Assembly: GCF_004216665.1 (NCBI RefSeq)
Contig: NZ_SGWY01000003.1
Span: forward strand, 744,001 to 808,000
DNA length: 64,000 nucleotides
From: Agromyces ramosus
GTDB taxonomy: Bacteria; Actinomycetota; Actinomycetes; Actinomycetales; Microbacteriaceae
Reading direction: 5' to 3'
Shown here: positions 57,598-64,000 of the stretch, piece after piece
Layout of the letters: each line of letters starts with the position of its first letter
Position numbering within the stretch: the first letter of the stretch is position 1
The notes under the pieces: model-generated
Seen by the model: only the letters and a program-made list of their open reading frames with translations
Told to the model about the DNA's origin: nothing
Databases searched by the model: none
Position numbers and translations under genes: made by a program

Positions 57598-58599
57598 TCA
57601 GGCGGCGGACGATGCCCGAGCTCGGCGGCGCGGCATCCGGAGCCGGCCCTGGGCGAGCAGGATGCCGAGGAGCACGAGCACGGCGCCGACCGGCTCGTGC
57701 CAGCTGAACCGCTCGGCGAGCAGCAGTACGCCCAGCACCACGCCGACGACCGGGGTCACGTACGTGACCGTCGAGGTGCCGGTCGGCCCCCAGGCCCGCA
57801 GCACGTTGATGTTCCAGATGTAGGCGAGGCCCGTGCCGAGCACGCCGAGCGCCAGTAGCGAGCCGACGATGGTCCAGTCGAGGTCGACCGGCGAGAGGGC
57901 GAGCCACGGCGTGAGCACGAGCATCACCACTGCCGAGACGCCGATCGAGAGGAACGCGAACGTCGCGGGGGCGATCGGGCGCTGGCTGAGGAAGCGGCGC
58001 TGGTAGCCGAACGTGAAGCCGTAGCACGCGGTGGCGACCAGGCACGCGAGCTGCCCGGCGAGGCTGCCGGTGAGCGCCGAGTACTGCCATGGTCCGATCA
58101 CGACGATGACCCCCAGGATGCCGACGCCCACGCCGACCCAGCGGCTGAGCCCGAGGCGCTCGACGCGGAACACGAGGGTGGCCATGAGCGCGGTCATGAT
58201 CGGGGTGGTGGCGTTGTAGATCGACGCGAGGCTCGACGAGACGTACTGCTCGGCCCAGGCGAAGCACAGGTAGGGGATGACGCACGTCGTGAGCGACACG
58301 ACGAGGAAGTGCAGCCAGACCACGCGCTCGCGCGGCAGTACCGGACCGGGCGTGCCATCGACCCGCGGCACGCGCGGACGTGTGATCAGCACGATCGCAC
58401 CGAGGGCGAGGGCACCGAGCACGGTGCGCGACCATGCCACCTGGCCGAACGAGACGCCCTCGAGCGCGACCTTCATGAAGAGGAAGCTGGCCCCCCACAC
58501 CACGCCCATCGCGAGGAACTGCACCCACGTCGACAGCCGCCCGGATCGATTCGGTGCGGATGCCGCGACGGCGGCCTGACGGGTGGTGCTGGTGCTCAC
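57598..58599 (-). CDS. EamA/DMT-superfamily exporter
   Basis: The protein has 333 residues and ten membrane helices in two EamA repeats. The first is FLAMGVVWGASFLFMKVALEGVSFGQVAWSRTVLGALAL, and the second includes GTGLAYIWNINVLRAWGPTGTSTVTYVTPVVGVVLGVLLLAERF. It typically exports metabolites such as amino acids. GTG 58599 follows minus-strand TACGCT by six bases, suggesting a leaderless mRNA. It is divergent from the CHAT-protein gene by 195 bp. Confidence 0.92.
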   Translation of the reverse strand: MSTSTTRQAAVAASAPNRSGRLSTWVQFLAMGVVWGASFLFMKVALEGVSFGQVAWSRTVLGALALGAIVLITRPRVPRVDGTPGPVLPRERVVWLHFLVVSLTTCVIPYLCFAWAEQYVSSSLASIYNATTPIMTALMATLVFRVERLGLSRWVGVGVGILGVIVVIGPWQYSALTGSLAGQLACLVATACYGFTFGYQRRFLSQRPIAPATFAFLSIGVSAVVMLVLTPWLALSPVDLDWTIVGSLLALGVLGTGLAYIWNINVLRAWGPTGTSTVTYVTPVVGVVLGVLLLAERFSWHEPVGAVLVLLGILLAQGRLRMPRRRARASSAA

Positions 58600-58794: not shown

Positions 58795-60951
58795 ATGAGC
58801 GCGATCATCGAGCTGGAGATCGGACCCGGCGAGGAGCCGGGCACGTGGAACGTCCGCGTCCTCCGATCGGCAGGGGCGGATGCGGCATCCGCGTCGTTCA
58901 GCCTGGACGTCGACGCCCTCATCTCCCGGCTGCCCTTCATGGACTCCACCGTGCTCGCCTCGGCCGTCCCCGCACGGCGGGTCCTGACCGAGGGCGAGAC
59001 CGAGGTTCAGCGCGTGGGCACCGAGCTGTTCTCCGCGGTCTTCGCCGGCGAGGTCGAGGAGGCGTACCGCACGAGCCGCGCGGTCGCCAAGGAGCGCGGC
59101 GAGAGCCTGCAGGTGCGGCTCCGGCTCGTCGCGCCCACGCTCGCAGCCCTGCCCTGGGAGGCGCTGTTCGACCCCGAGGCGGGCGTGTACGTCTGCCGCA
59201 AGGAGCCGCTCATCCGGCAGATCCCCACGACGGACGTGATGGAACCGCTGAGCCTCGAACCGCCGCTGCGCGTGCTGGCGATGGTCGCGGCGCCCGGCGA
59301 CCTGCCGGCGATCGACGCCGGGGCGGAGCGTGTGCGCCTCGAGGCGGCGCTCCGGCCGCACATCGCCCGGGGCCGGATCCTCGTCGAGTGGCTCGACGAG
59401 GTCACCTGGAGCAACGTGCACGAGAAGCTGCTCTCGGCGCCGTGGCACGTGCTCCACTTCGTGGGGCACGGATCCTACGATGCGTCGTCCGACGAGGGGG
59501 TGCTCGCGTTCGTCGGCTCCGGCGGGCGGGCGGAGTACGTCGACGCCTCGGCGCTCGCCGACCTGCTCGACCAGGCTGAGCCGACGCCCCGCCTGGTCGT
59601 GATCAACTCGTGCATGTCGGGCGCAGCGAGCACGGACGAGCTGTACTCCGGCACGGCTGCGGCGCTCGTCAACAGCGGCATCAACGCCGTCGCCGCGATG
59701 CAGTTCACGATCAGCGACGCGGCGGCGGTCGCGTTCTCGCAGGGCTTCTACTCCGCCCTCGCCTACGGCCGCCGCATCGACGAGGCGGTCGTGAGCGGTC
59801 GGATCGCGATCCTCGGCCTCGGCAGGGACACGCTCGAGTGGGTCACGCCGGTGCTCTGCCTGCGCGGCGACGACACGCGCCTGTTCATCCTGCCGCCCAG
59901 CCCGGCGGACGCGGAGGACGCGGAGGACGCAGCGGGAGCCGAGCACGCGGCGGGCGCCGCGGCCATCCCGGGAGGCCCCGATGCCCCGCCGGAGCCCCGA
60001 CCGAAGCCCGACCCGCGCCGAGTCGGCCTGATCGCCGCCGTGGCGGCCGGGGCCGCGCTGCTCCTCGGCATCGGCGGCACGGTCGCGGTGATGGCCGCCT
60101 TGGGCGGTGGCGGTGGCGCAGACGGGGGTTCCGGCGCCGCCGACGTCGGGGCGCAGACCCTCCCCGCCCGCATCGACGTCGCGGGCGACACGGTGTGGAC
60201 CCCCACCGGCCTCGACTGCGCCGGCGGCCAGCGGCTCCTGCTCACGGCGTCGGGGGAGGTCGAGGTGGACGACCTCGGCGGCATCGCGCTGACGCCGGAG
60301 GGCGCCCAGCAGCAGTACTCGACGATCAACCCGCAGCCGTACGCGTCGTACGCCTCGCTCATCGGCCGCGTCGGCGACGGCGGCATGCCGTTCGTGGTCG
60401 GATCCCGGCTCGCGATGGAGTGCCCCGGCGACGGCGACCTCCAATTGGGCGTCAACGACCCGGATCCCGCCCAGAACGTCGGCCAGTTCTCCGTGCAGGT
60501 CTCGGATGTCACCGTCGACCCGACGATCACGCTCGACGCCCTCACCCCGATCACGGTCGACGTGCCGGCCGACGCCGGCGACTGGACGTCCACGGGGATC
60601 ACGTGCGTGCCGGGGGCCACCTATTCGATCTGGGCTGACGGGGTGATCACGTGGGGGGAGGATCAGGAGCTCACGGCGGTGAACCCCGACGGAACGGAGC
60701 TGTTCGCCGAGCAGGACAACGACGCGACCGCGAACCTGCCTGGCCTGGAGGCCGCGCAACATGGATCTCTCGTCGGCGCCATCGGCGGCCTGCCGCCGTA
60801 CGTCGGACTCGGCACCGACACGTACGTCGACTGCTATGCCGGCGGCGGCCGGATCGGTGAGCTCGTGCTGGGCCTGAACGACCTGGACCGCGCCGACAAC
60901 ACCGGCGGGTTCACGGTCACCCTGTCCCGCATCACCGGCCCGTCGGGCTGA
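58795..60951 (+). CDS. CHAT-domain (caspase-like) protease, transmembrane, with two PA-IL-like C-terminal modules
   Basis: The protein has 718 residues. Residues 1-120 are a beta/alpha N-terminal region with FSLDVDALISRLP and [23 protein letters not shown]. Residues about 130-370 are the CHAT protease, with the catalytic His225 in [11 protein letters not shown] and Cys273 in LVVINSCMSG. An acidic Ala/Glu linker leads to one membrane helix at about 410-432 (GLIAAVAAGAALLLGIGGTVAVMAAL), basic on its N-side, so the protease is inside and the C-terminus outside. Outside are two tandem PA-IL/LecA-like beta modules (TPTGLDCAGGQRLLLTASG; LQLGVNDPDPAQNVGQFSV; LVLGLNDLDRADNTGGFTV). GGGAG lies upstream of the ATG. 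Confidence 0.88.
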   Translation: MSAIIELEIGPGEEPGTWNVRVLRSAGADAASASFSLDVDALISRLPFMDSTVLASAVPARRVLTEGETEVQRVGTELFSAVFAGEVEEAYRTSRAVAKERGESLQVRLRLVAPTLAALPWEALFDPEAGVYVCRKEPLIRQIPTTDVMEPLSLEPPLRVLAMVAAPGDLPAIDAGAERVRLEAALRPHIARGRILVEWLDEVTWSNVHEKLLSAPWHVLHFVGHGSYDASSDEGVLAFVGSGGRAEYVDASALADLLDQAEPTPRLVVINSCMSGAASTDELYSGTAAALVNSGINAVAAMQFTISDAAAVAFSQGFYSALAYGRRIDEAVVSGRIAILGLGRDTLEWVTPVLCLRGDDTRLFILPPSPADAEDAEDAAGAEHAAGAAAIPGGPDAPPEPRPKPDPRRVGLIAAVAAGAALLLGIGGTVAVMAALGGGGGADGGSGAADVGAQTLPARIDVAGDTVWTPTGLDCAGGQRLLLTASGEVEVDDLGGIALTPEGAQQQYSTINPQPYASYASLIGRVGDGGMPFVVGSRLAMECPGDGDLQLGVNDPDPAQNVGQFSVQVSDVTVDPTITLDALTPITVDVPADAGDWTSTGITCVPGATYSIWADGVITWGEDQELTAVNPDGTELFAEQDNDATANLPGLEAAQHGSLVGAIGGLPPYVGLGTDTYVDCYAGGGRIGELVLGLNDLDRADNTGGFTVTLSRITGPSG

Positions 60952-60957
60952 ACACCG

Positions 60958-60988
60958 CCGTCGAGGCATCCGACCCGTGACGAGCGGG
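60958..60988 (+). repeat. 31-bp 3' flank repeat, copy 1
   Basis: This stretch beginning CCGTCGAGGCATCCGACC and ending GACGAGCGGG recurs at 63451-63480 with one base missing. Both follow the stop of a CHAT gene by a few bases, marking the duplicated segment. Confidence 0.75.
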
Positions 60989-61110
60989 AGCGCCCCTCGA
61001 CGATCATCATGACCGCGCAGTCCGTGCTACCCCTGACGCTGCCGGGATCCGGCGACGCTACCCTGCCGATGAAAATGCGTCGGCACGCTGTGCCGCCCAG
61101 GGGGCGTGAG

Positions 61111-63447
61111 ATGAGTGCGATCATCGAGGTCGAGATCGGTCCCGGAGCAGATCCGGGCACGTACGACGCTCGCGTGATCCGCGCGCCCGGAGGTGCGCCG
61201 GGACGACTGAACTTCTCCCTGGACATCGATTCGATTCTCGAACGCCTTCCGACTGTGGAGGCCGTAGTCCTCGCTTCGGCCGTGTCGGCACGGCGAACCC
61301 TCACGGCGAACGAGTCGGAGATCCACCGTCTCGGCGGCTAGTTGTTCGCCTCGACCTTTGCAGGCGACGTCGGCACCGCCTTCCGAACCGGCCAGGCCGT
61401 CGCCCGCGAGCGAGGCACGAGCCTCCAGGTCCGCCTCCGGCTCACCGACCCTTCCCTCGCGGCACTGCCCTGGGAGGCGATGTTCGATCCCGTCGACGGA
61501 GTGTACGTGTGCCGCAAGGAGCCGCTCATCCGCTACGTCGAGACGCCGAGATCGAACGAAGCCCTTCGCGTCGAACCGCCGCTGCGCATCCTGGGCATCA
61601 TCTCCGCGCCGCGCAACCTGCCTCGAATCGACACCTCGTCCGAGCGCGATCGACTCGAGCGCGCACTCGGTTCCCACCTCGCAGCAGGTCGGGTCACCAT
61701 CGACTGGCTCGAGGAGGCGACATGGGCGAACGTTCACGAGAGACTCCTCTCCGGACGATGGCACGTGCTCCACTTCGTCGGACACGGGGACTACGACCAT
61801 GCCGCCGGTGAGGGCGTCCTCGCGCTGGTCGGAGAGGGCGGACGCGCGGAGTACGTCGATGCGAGCGTGTTCGCCGACCTGATCGACGAAGCGGAGCCGA
61901 CGCCCCGACTCGTCGTCCTGAACTCCTGCGCCTCCGGAGCGTCGGGCGACACGGAGTTGTTCGCCGGCACGGCGTCAGCCCTGGTGCGCAGCGGTGTCCA
62001 AGCGGTCGCGGCGATGCAGTTCACGGTCAGCGATCCGGCCGCGCTGGAGTTCTCGCGCGGCTTCTACTCGGCGCTCGCGAACGGGCGAGGGGTCGATGAA
62101 GCGGTGCGCAGCGGACGGATCGCGATCCTGGGTCTCGGTCGGTTCACCCTGGAGTGGGTCACGCCCGTGCTGTACCTTGCGGGCGACGATGCACACCTCT
62201 TCGACATCGACGCGGCCGCCGTGCCGGCGCTCGTGACCGCTCCGCCCCCGCCCACACCTGCCCCGATTGCCGAGCCCAGCCCCGAACCGGAGCCCGAACC
62301 GGAGCCCGAACCCGGGCTCGAATCGGCGCCCGAACCCGAACCGGCGCCCGAACCCGAACCGGCGCCCGAACCCGAACCGGCGCCCGAACCCGAGCCGGCG
62401 CCCGAACCGGAGCCCGAACCCGAGCCCGAACCCACAGCAGACGCCGAATCGGGGCCGGGGCGCGAGCCCGCCGAGCTGCCACCCACGTACGCACACCCCG
62501 ATGTCCCGCCAGCACCCGGTCGCAGGTCGTCGCGGAAGCGCCGGCTCGTGCTCCTCATCGCTGGCGCGGCGGCACTCGTCGGGATCGGGACCGCCGTGGT
62601 ATTCGCACTTGGCGGCTCGAGGTCGAGCGGGGGCGCGGTCGTGGGGGATGGCCCGTCCGAACCGGACCCACCGATGACCTTCACGATGCCGGGGAGCATC
62701 CCGTGGACCTCGACCGGCGTCGAATGCACCGGCGGGAGCGCCCTCGAGATCACGGCCACGGGGACCGTGACCGATGAGTCGGACCCGTCGGCACCGGTGA
62801 CGCCCGACGGACTCGACGACGTCGCCCGCCGTCAGGCGAACCTGCCCGCACTACCCGACGCCAATGCCCTCGCCCTGGTGGGTCGGGTCGGCGAGGACCA
62901 GCCGTACTTCGTGATCGGCAGCGACTTCACCGGCATCTGCCCTGCCTCCGGCCCGCTCGATATCGGACTCAACGACACGGCGACCAGTGGCAACGGCGGA
63001 TCGTTCGAGGTCACCGCGACCATGACGCCGAGCAACGGTGTCGGCAATTACTTCGTCGAACCCGTGCCCGGAGACTCGACCTGGTCGCAGGCAGCCGTCA
63101 CCTGCGAGGCAGGCGACCGGATCCACTTCATGGCCAGCGGGCGGGTACTGCTCGGAGGGGCGCCGGACCGAGTCGCCGGACCCGACGGACGGCCGGGGGA
63201 CGACGCATCCTCGAACCTCCCCGGGCTCGAGTCGGCTCCACCCGGGGCGTTGATCGGGCGATTCGGTGACGCCCCGCCGTTCCTCATCGGTTCGTCGTCG
63301 TCGGTGGCGTGCCCGGGCGGCACCGAGTACTGGCTCGACCTGGCTCTGGGGATCAACGACGCGGGCCCGGATGTCGCCTACAACACCGGAACGTTCACGG
63401 TCGCGGTCGTGCCCCTCACCGAGACGGATCCGTCCGAATCGGACTGA
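61111..63447 (+). pseudogene. second CHAT-domain paralogue, interrupted by an amber codon at 61339-61341
   Basis: The frame is 778 codons including an in-frame TAG at codon 77. The first copy has GAG (Glu77) at the matching place. Otherwise it is intact: His225 ([10 protein letters not shown]) and Cys273 (VVLNSCASG) fall at identical positions to the first copy. A Glu-Pro-repeat linker spans about 370-460. One membrane helix lies at about 478-500 ([22 protein letters not shown]), with two PA-IL-like modules after it. The downstream part could restart weakly at TTG 61342. Readthrough, a nonsense mutation and a sequencing error all remain possible. Confidence 0.75.
62324..62395 (+). repeat. four 18-bp tandem repeats encoding APEPEP
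   Basis: Four head-to-tail units of CGGCGCCCGAACCCGAAC at 62324, 62342, 62360 and 62378 encode the Ala-Pro-Glu-Pro linker between the protease and the membrane helix. Less regular GAGCCCGAACC repeats flank them. The first CHAT paralogue lacks this linker. Confidence 0.85.
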
Positions 63448-63505: not shown

Positions 63506-64000
63506 ATGACCAGCCAATTCGACGTCATCGTCCTCGGCGCGGGCCCCGGCGGCTACGTTGCCGCGATCCGCGCCGCGCAGCTCGGCCTGAAGGTGGCCGT
63601 CATCGAGGAGAAGTACTGGGGCGGAGTGTGCCTCAACGTGGGCTGCATCCCCTCGAAGGCGCTGCTGCGAAATGCCGAGCTCGCGCACATCTTCCACGAC
63701 CAAGCCGCCACGTTCGGCATCTCGGGCGACGTGCAGTTCGACTTCGGTGCCGCCTTCGACCGAAGTCGTCAGGTGTCCGAGAAGCACGTCAAGGGCGTGC
63801 ACTTCCTCATGAAGAAGAACGGGATCACCGAGTTCGACGGCCGAGGCACGTTCCGTGACGCGAACACCATCGACGTCGCGAAGTCCGACGGCTCGACCGA
63901 GACGGTCTCCTTCCGCAATGCGATCATCGCGACGGGCTCTCGCGTCCGGCTCCTGCCCGGCGTGCAGTTGTCGCAGAACGTCGTCACCTACGAGGAGCAG
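63506..64000 (+). CDS. lpdA: dihydrolipoyl dehydrogenase, truncated by window edge
   Basis: The first 165 residues are visible. The FAD fingerprint is [36 protein letters not shown]. The redox-active disulphide is [10 protein letters not shown] (Cys-x4-Cys). The [15 protein letters not shown] segment is the FAD-domain ATG motif. It is the E3 component of 2-oxoacid dehydrogenase complexes. The frame is open at the right edge. Confidence 0.95.

Follow-up and report, generated by a model that had tools for sequence, protein, structure and literature searches.

How is a caspase-like protease controlled when it is built into one chain with lectin-like modules on the far side of the membrane? This question is raised by two neighboring genes, P1 and P2, in a stretch of 64,000 nucleotides from Agromyces ramosus, hereafter the window (G000:C3:744001-808000, part of one contig in a 3.8 Mb genome). 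We consider it probable that P1 unites receptor and protease in one transmembrane chain, as the CHAT counterpart of the EACC1-caspase systems, in which a constant protease is combined with a variable sensor. In the proposed mechanism, the CHAT protease of P1 would reside in the cytoplasm, a single helix would cross the membrane and two lectin-like modules would be exposed outside. The ligand of these outer modules would most likely be a glycan or another component of the surface or wall, and its binding, probably via receptor clustering, would activate CHAT to cut a cytosolic protein, the small protein Trypco1 itself being one candidate. The P1 family as a whole would then consist of a constant CHAT head and exchangeable sensor halves, with Trypco1 as a frequent partner. 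Its function as a receptor, its switching on by clustering, the cutting of a target protein and a role in defense or conflict are what we infer for P1, whose parts are the following.

58795..60951, plus strand: P1, intact gene for a protein of 718 amino acids with CHAT domain, transmembrane (TM) helix and ectodomain (Pfam and hydropathy; orthologues in the relatives G052 and G021)
58795..59010, plus strand: N-terminal conserved head of P1, residues 1-72, within the stretch common to 33 aligned family members
59011..59823, plus strand: CHAT protease domain of P1, residues 73-343 (Pfam PF12770, E 8.1e-26)
59467..59469 and 59611..59613, plus strand: catalytic codons of P1, His225 and Cys273, in HFVGHG and NSC motifs
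60022..60078, plus strand: membrane helix of P1, residues 410-428 (hydropathy and charge count)
60160..60519, plus strand: module A of the P1 ectodomain, PA-IL-like (module alignment and profile search)
60535..60948, plus strand: module B of the P1 ectodomain, PA-IL-like (module alignment and profile search)

The assignment of P1 to the CHAT family is confirmed. In the Pfam scan its CHAT domain scores 91.6 bits against a curated cut-off of 24, and this search, on which the CHAT fold proposed from the sequence hung, returned PF12770 above the cut-off both in P1 and in the P2 frame. His225 and Cys273 are invariant in 33 of 33 rows of the family alignment, rows that include P1 and P2, and few positions among residues 1-72 are invariant in the same alignment. 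The orthologue of P1 is whole in G052 and lies across two contig pieces in G021. In Agromyces humi, the nearest named relative in the scanned collection, the first CHAT head is 93% identical to that of P1. The sole hydrophobic segment of P1 covers residues 410-428; the 12 residues preceding it contain four Lys/Arg, the 12 following it none. This charge pattern predicts that the N-terminus with CHAT remains inside and that the C-terminal rest is outside, in agreement with the topology that had been read from the sequence; of 24 proteins with a single predicted helix, 23 have more Lys/Arg before the helix than after.

The two beta modules predicted to face outward, which the sequence-only reading had recognized by their signature motifs, are confirmed in the C-terminal half of P1. 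In an alignment of 23 modules over their full length, four from the window and 19 from relatives, two Cys plus an N, D, N, G, F signature are invariant throughout, and the invariant Cys pair is as expected for a location outside the cell. N99, D100 and N106 of module A, among them putative counterparts of the calcium and galactose ligand residues of LecA, belong to these invariant positions. Compared with the PDB, the 23-module profile matches PllA (1.6e-6), two further PA-I lectins (1.3e-4 and 0.0012) and LecA and a relative (0.013), all matches at E<=0.1 being PA-IL-type lectins, and a profile from 19 ectodomains matches PllA at 1.9e-8. Because the module profile matches only PA-IL-type lectins in the PDB, a PA-IL-like fold is likely for the modules of P1 and P2, with galactose binding only putative. 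The likeness to PA-IL claimed earlier is thus borne out at the profile level and falls short at the level of the Pfam model (PF07828), where P1 obtains 12.5 bits against a cut-off of 22.5, P2 is not listed at E up to 1, and four of the 23 single modules match at E<=0.1, the best at 9.7e-4.

The modules are closely tied to CHAT genes within the genus. In 41 genus genomes the module profile has 21 matches. Twenty of them belong to CHAT genes, if three in G021 are included that fall on contig ends with the head cut off; the sole exception is a small, apparently secreted stand-alone protein in G007 (L158). In the class sample, seven of 246 genomes match, G000 among them, and the module frames viewed in three of the six others belong to a kinase, a small protein with a signal-like start and a secreted-looking multi-module protein. 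The kinase, a Ser/Thr kinase in G132 (L175:1495-3399, minus strand; kinase E 5e-46 in Pfam), bears a related module (E 3.1e-10), which follows an apparent membrane helix and by eye lacks the first Cys; this kinase would represent a related sensor with a different output. Such a kinase speaks for a sensor of the state of the envelope or wall, in which the modules read glycans of the cell's own wall and CHAT serves regulated proteolysis in division or development, as in HetF, a characterized divisome component with a CHAT domain and a single predicted membrane segment (PMC8406250). The heads of P1 and P2 do match the NCBIfam model of HetF, if weakly, at 65.1 and 66.2 bits against a cut-off of 1200. 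However, a core role in division fits badly with presence in only 11 of 60 genus genomes and with the exchange of ectodomains described below, and we regard a wall sensor as doubtful.

Across relatives, the CHAT head is constant and the C-terminal half is exchanged. The A. ramosus genome itself has ten CHAT places, seven of them with a PA-IL-like ectodomain and nine modules in all: the window pair, four genes in tandem (L009) and one alone (L011). Two further genes lie together (L010), one with many predicted helices and the second with none, and the tenth (L012:6474-10974, minus strand) codes for a different CHAT protein that contains DUF7363; the gene next to it encodes a C14 caspase domain. 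P1-matching heads (E<=1e-20) occur in 11 of 60 genus genomes, and P1-type heads in 11 of 295 order-sample genomes outside the genus. On a tree of 43 heads, a quick tree in which some long branches are joined (L149 with L143 among them), the labels of the C-terminal halves change 12 times, with a minimum of 8 for nine labels, as opposed to 24.7 changes on average for shuffled labels; these labels were assigned by hand, 'TPR' by eye with little Pfam support and 'TM_other' lumping unlike ectodomains, and gene calls in the relatives' loci come from a caller based on GC content at third codon positions (GC3), with approximate starts. The clearest exchange, with support 99, distinguishes two sister heads, L011 with PA-IL and L073 with another ectodomain, and a PA-IL-like module also sits on a distant head in G355 (L149). 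Other C-terminal halves carry CBM9 (by Pfam in L143, L144, which is just above the cut-off, and L146; by likeness in L142, L145 and L147), NHL repeats (L017), WD40 (L152) or multiple helices.

The substitution rates of both halves differ as well. The ratio of nonsynonymous to synonymous rates (dN/dS) of P1 against its G052 orthologue is 0.18 for residues 1-371 and 0.35 for the ectodomain; against the G031 homologue these values are 0.30 for the head and 0.66 for the ectodomain, and against A. humi 0.16 and 0.37. Such a contrast agrees with a constrained enzyme that carries a rapidly changing sensor.

The receptor-protease explanation includes an immune receptor as a special case, in which the ectodomain would detect a phage or a hostile neighbor and CHAT would bring about growth arrest or death (abortive infection). 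Published work links both CHAT and Trypco proteins to conflict systems (PMC10907252, PMC7159879), and this company that the two families keep makes a role of P1 in immunity plausible. Likewise, the patchy presence in the genus and the exchanged sensor half are what would be expected of such a receptor, and the PADLOC model SAVED_CHAT matches the head region (E 1.4e-16), solely over model positions 79-265 of 498; no SAVED family was found in the Pfam scan of the window proteins. On the other hand, patchiness and variable sensors equally fit signaling, and no killing partner was identified at the window locus, where PADLOC covered P1 and P2 only. The immune receptor is therefore a narrower reading that we hold to be possible, short of probable.

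In relatives, the CHAT genes have a frequent companion. Trypco1 (PF19493) was found in ten of 60 genus genomes at 11 places, and at ten of these it adjoins a CHAT gene of the family, near and distant heads counted together; the eleventh, in G043, adjoins a trypsin-like gene (Pfam Trypsin_2). The CHAT head and Trypco1 occur together in nine genus genomes (hypergeometric 3.6e-8, kinship ignored). Outside the genus, Trypco1 is present in 11 of 295 order-sample genomes and both occur in four (hypergeometric 3.1e-4, kinship ignored), adjacent to each other in three of them (G355, G498 and G507) and on different contigs in G358. Eighteen of 38 CHAT loci examined, a non-random set picked in several ways in which L065 and L066 were taken as two ends of one gene, have Trypco1 on the same strand as CHAT and at most 131 bases apart, and 11 of these 18 copies served to build the search profile. 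At the class level, Trypco1 occurs in 47 of 296 sampled genomes, and P1-type CHAT was met by tblastn at none of 29 Trypco1 loci (L079-L107), with a reach of 1.5 kb to each side that would miss the heads of long upstream CHAT genes; G347, among the matches listed for both, has a CHAT-WD40 gene followed by Trypco1.

An Arg, mostly as Arg-Gly, recurs in a loop of Trypco1 (L009:12233-12661 and others). Of 18 CHAT-adjacent copies, 17 contain Arg-Gly, compared with 6 of 12 copies near a trypsin-like motif and 8 of 27 near neither, counted anywhere in the matched stretch, where chance gives it often, and uncorrected for relatedness. In 11 aligned copies its position is, by eye, the same, after the first strands and ahead of the helix, as these are read from the sequence. 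Some caspase-fold proteases prefer Arg, and the loop is a possible protease cut site. As proof of cleavage, Arg-Gly was rejected, the count being uncorrected and prone to chance, and it remains a lead. In its boldest form, the idea would be that CHAT-Trypco1 constitutes an actinobacterial class of transmembrane receptor-proteases with Trypco1 as the protease's own substrate, cut at the loop Arg, mostly Arg-Gly. We judge this quite unlikely, yet a substrate role of Trypco1 would explain its pairing with two unrelated protease folds, trypsin-like and CHAT. If true, the exchange of lectin, CBM9 and propeller ectodomains would amount to a repertoire of surface receptors reporting through one cut.

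In another reading, the modules would merely anchor the protein at the surface and the CHAT protease would be controlled from inside, e.g., by Trypco1. Trypco1 is genetically linked in relatives and has no obvious membrane segment by eye, and relatives without a predicted membrane segment exist (the second gene of L010, and L077). Anchoring, however, needs no such variety of ectodomains, and we consider a pure anchor unlikely.

CHAT-TM-CBM9-like proteins of the same order add another carbohydrate-type ectodomain to PA-IL and another kind of partner, a C14 caspase, to Trypco1. A C14 caspase gene adjoins CHAT in five of six CBM9 loci (L142, L144, L145, L146 and L147), and in the sixth, L143, the scanned neighbor is another CHAT gene.

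The second gene of the window, P2, has the following features.

61111..61338, plus strand: N-terminal fragment of P2, 76 codons before the stop (54.7% identity to P1 over 75 residues)
61339..61341, plus strand: in-frame TAG splitting P2, codon 77 of the frame from ATG 61111 (sequence and frame reading)
61342..63447, plus strand: downstream open frame of P2, 701 amino acids from TTG (CHAT, Pro-Glu-rich linker, TM helix, two PA-IL-like modules)
61783 and 61927, plus strand: starts of the His and Cys codons of P2
62545..62601, plus strand: TM helix of P2 (hydropathy)
62659..63027 and 63049..63435, plus strand: two PA-IL-like modules of P2 (module alignment)

The sequence-only reading had described P1 and P2 as tandem CHAT paralogues with His225 and Cys273 at identical positions. 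Whereas this description is accurate for P1, P2 is not intact, and its numbering agrees only when the TAG is given a codon number of its own. The downstream frame still reaches 99.3 bits for CHAT in Pfam (cut-off 24) despite the loss of the N-terminal 77 positions. A purine-rich sequence is seen by eye 5' of ATG 61111, and none resembling a ribosome-binding site 5' of TTG 61342, which directly follows the stop. Probably P2 lost its integrity only recently, or else the TAG reflects an error in the assembly, because no further stop occurs in the 701 codons after TAG, with about 14 expected in 778 codons of that composition. Its GC3 (0.73 before the stop and 0.83 after, compared to 0.94 for P1) fits a foreign or relaxed gene. 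The quick tree places P2 outside the group formed by P1, the G052 orthologue of P1 and the G031 homologue (approximate likelihood ratio test, SH-aLRT, 96 and 93). P2 is a separate, older paralogue of P1, now interrupted by a stop. Its origin as a recent tandem duplicate of P1 was rejected, since the heads are only about 65% identical and the P2 branch is long (0.51); in addition, G052 and G021, the two closest relatives sampled, have no P2 in the interval that follows P1.

The interruption invites the view that P1 and P2 are a functionless remnant in decay. In G044, a second CHAT copy that lies beside Trypco1 (L072:6265-7587, minus strand, and nearby) likewise matches only as short pieces in several frames, which suggests that gene decay recurs among the CHAT relatives. 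For the window pair we nevertheless find such a remnant most improbable: P1 is open over its full length, its head evolves at a dN/dS of 0.16-0.30, its catalytic dyad is invariant, and P2 lacks any other stop in its downstream codons.

The pair is inserted between two genes that we regard as context and not as part of the system.

57646..58599, minus strand: EamA transporter gene (its relative in L063 is EamA in Pfam, E 2e-40, and matches the window copy at 92%)
63506..64000, plus strand: oxidoreductase gene running off the window (Pfam Pyr_redox_2, E 9.6e-26), which we take to be dihydrolipoyl-dehydrogenase-like

In G052 the oxidoreductase gene comes immediately after P1, with P2 missing, and so it does on the G021 contig that carries the 3' part of P1; in G031 a helicase-like gene takes this place. 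In G018, G007 and G023 the EamA and oxidoreductase genes are adjacent, with a gap of about 0.15-0.75 kb and no P1 match. G054 carries about 8.5 kb of other sequence in this interval, and G010 about 3.5 kb. As these neighbors occur without CHAT in relatives, the CHAT genes are additions at a chromosomal junction that is common to the species and empty in some. An operon of P1 and P2 with the flanking genes was rejected on the same ground, the adjacency of both flanks without CHAT in G018, G007 and G023. Origin from a plasmid was rejected too (of ten plasmid records the best is one of Arthrobacter at 52%, the other nine reaching at most 33%), as were a phage origin (one unannotated phage record, a 42% match) and the junction as a defense hot spot, the insert genes of G054 not being defense-like by eye. 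Elsewhere, an NYN gene lies near CHAT genes (L009:16697-17785, and by sequence likeness L064, L070, L071, L072 and L075); the L009 copy, the only one scanned, carries a LOTUS domain. Since this gene stands beside CHAT genes in several species, those CHAT genes would occupy a shared site.

Several observations weigh against P1 as a receptor-protease with a Trypco1 partner. Trypco1 is absent from the 20 kb around the window pair (L013), and 20 of the 38 CHAT loci examined, the window included, are without it. G032 and G055 have P1-type CHAT genes and no Trypco1 match genome-wide. The immediate neighbors checked are a transporter and an oxidoreductase gene, and the PADLOC scan for defense genes covered the two proteins P1 and P2. 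The helix of L070 has equal charges on both sides. For the close pair G052 and A. humi, the contrast in dN/dS between head (0.24) and ectodomain (0.34) is small, and an ectodomain under relaxed constraint would evolve faster too. Finally, in the alignment of the modules with PDB lectins, the sugar-contact residues and loop of LecA, at what we take to be their positions, are not clearly kept. The lack of a partner beside the pair, as stated in the sequence-only reading, thus holds for Trypco1 at the window, whereas in the same genome related loci (L009 and L010) do bear it. The survey of neighbors in relatives leaves the window locus as an orphan within a family that adjoins Trypco1 at nearly every genus place of the latter. 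If P1 needs Trypco1 at all, the orphan copy would have to draw it from another locus of the same genome.

If the receptor-protease explanation of P1 is right, bacterial lectin-type surface receptors would signal straight into a caspase-like protease within a single chain, a layout close to the assembly of receptor, adaptor and caspase in animals. The combination of a constant head, exchangeable sensors and a partner in common with trypsin systems also leads to a testable question: is Trypco1 a common substrate or switch of unrelated conflict proteases?

Individual parts of P1 have known counterparts. Its modules are related at the profile level, over most of their length, to the lectins PA-IL/LecA and PllA; unlike these, they are fused to a receptor and have a conserved Cys pair, and the LecA carbohydrate contacts, as we presume them to be, are not clearly retained. 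The CHAT domain is shared with SAVED-CHAT (PDB 8tl0), which matches P1 at 3.6e-7 and the family profile at 1.1e-18. Activation of SAVED-CHAT and TPR-CHAT/Craspase, however, depends on a cyclic oligonucleotide or on RNA targeting in type III CRISPR, with no route via an ectodomain (PMC11417357, PMC9729208). HetF resembles P1 in having CHAT and one membrane segment, and differs in its TPR instead of lectin modules and in its role in the divisome (PMC8406250). The metacaspase-CHASE2 protein of T. erythraeum combines an inside caspase-fold protease and an outside receptor domain in one chain, as P1 does, yet with a C14 metacaspase, CHASE2 and four helices (PMC3501461). The EACC2 systems have a similar layout, a caspase-fold protease with TM helices and outward sensors (PMC8195603). 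A one-piece receptor with a caspase-like effector, as it was seen in the sequence, is thus supported, while its description as unusual is weakened by these precedents and by EACC1.

Trypco1 has been described as a neighbor of trypsin-like proteases (PMC7159879). Like the CHAT pairs, such pairs consist of a small Trypco1 beside a protease gene, one of them in Agromyces (G043); in the relatives studied here CHAT takes the place of the trypsin-like protease. According to a figure legend in the same source, Trypco-trypsin and hydrolase-caspase pairings are mutually exclusive (PMC7159879). The closest printed precedent for CHAT-Trypco pairing is found in loci with diversity-generating retroelements (DGRs): in the DGR 2 locus, a CHAT-TIR target protein is accompanied by a Trypco2 gene, and loci with Trypco1 or Trypco2 adapters and genes for caspase-like peptidases are named (PMC10907252). 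These loci differ by their C-type lectin sensors, diversified by the retroelement, and by other cores (PMC10907252). The neighborhood of Trypco1 and a caspase fold is therefore not wholly new; for a CHAT-TM-lectin receptor with Trypco1, no description was found in the available parts of the literature searched, a search that left out most subscription journals.

The overall layout of P1 and its relatives matches that of the EACC1-caspase systems (System 4), which are two-gene, membrane-linked and prevalent in actinobacteria (PMC7159879). The protease is different, CHAT in the window (24.9 bits for NF047832, cut-off 140), and so is the partner, which in the CHAT relatives scans as Trypco1, the window being flanked by EamA and oxidoreductase genes; no search was directed at EACC1. 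PA-IL-like and CBM9 domains are not named in the section on the EACC1 systems (PMC7159879). The EACC1-caspases have an N-terminal caspase fold and a C-terminal half that varies greatly and in some cases includes TM helices plus an extracellular domain; their small partner gene is constant (PMC7159879). It is this organization, a constant protease, a variable sensor half and a small partner gene, that they have in common with the CHAT family (PMC7159879).

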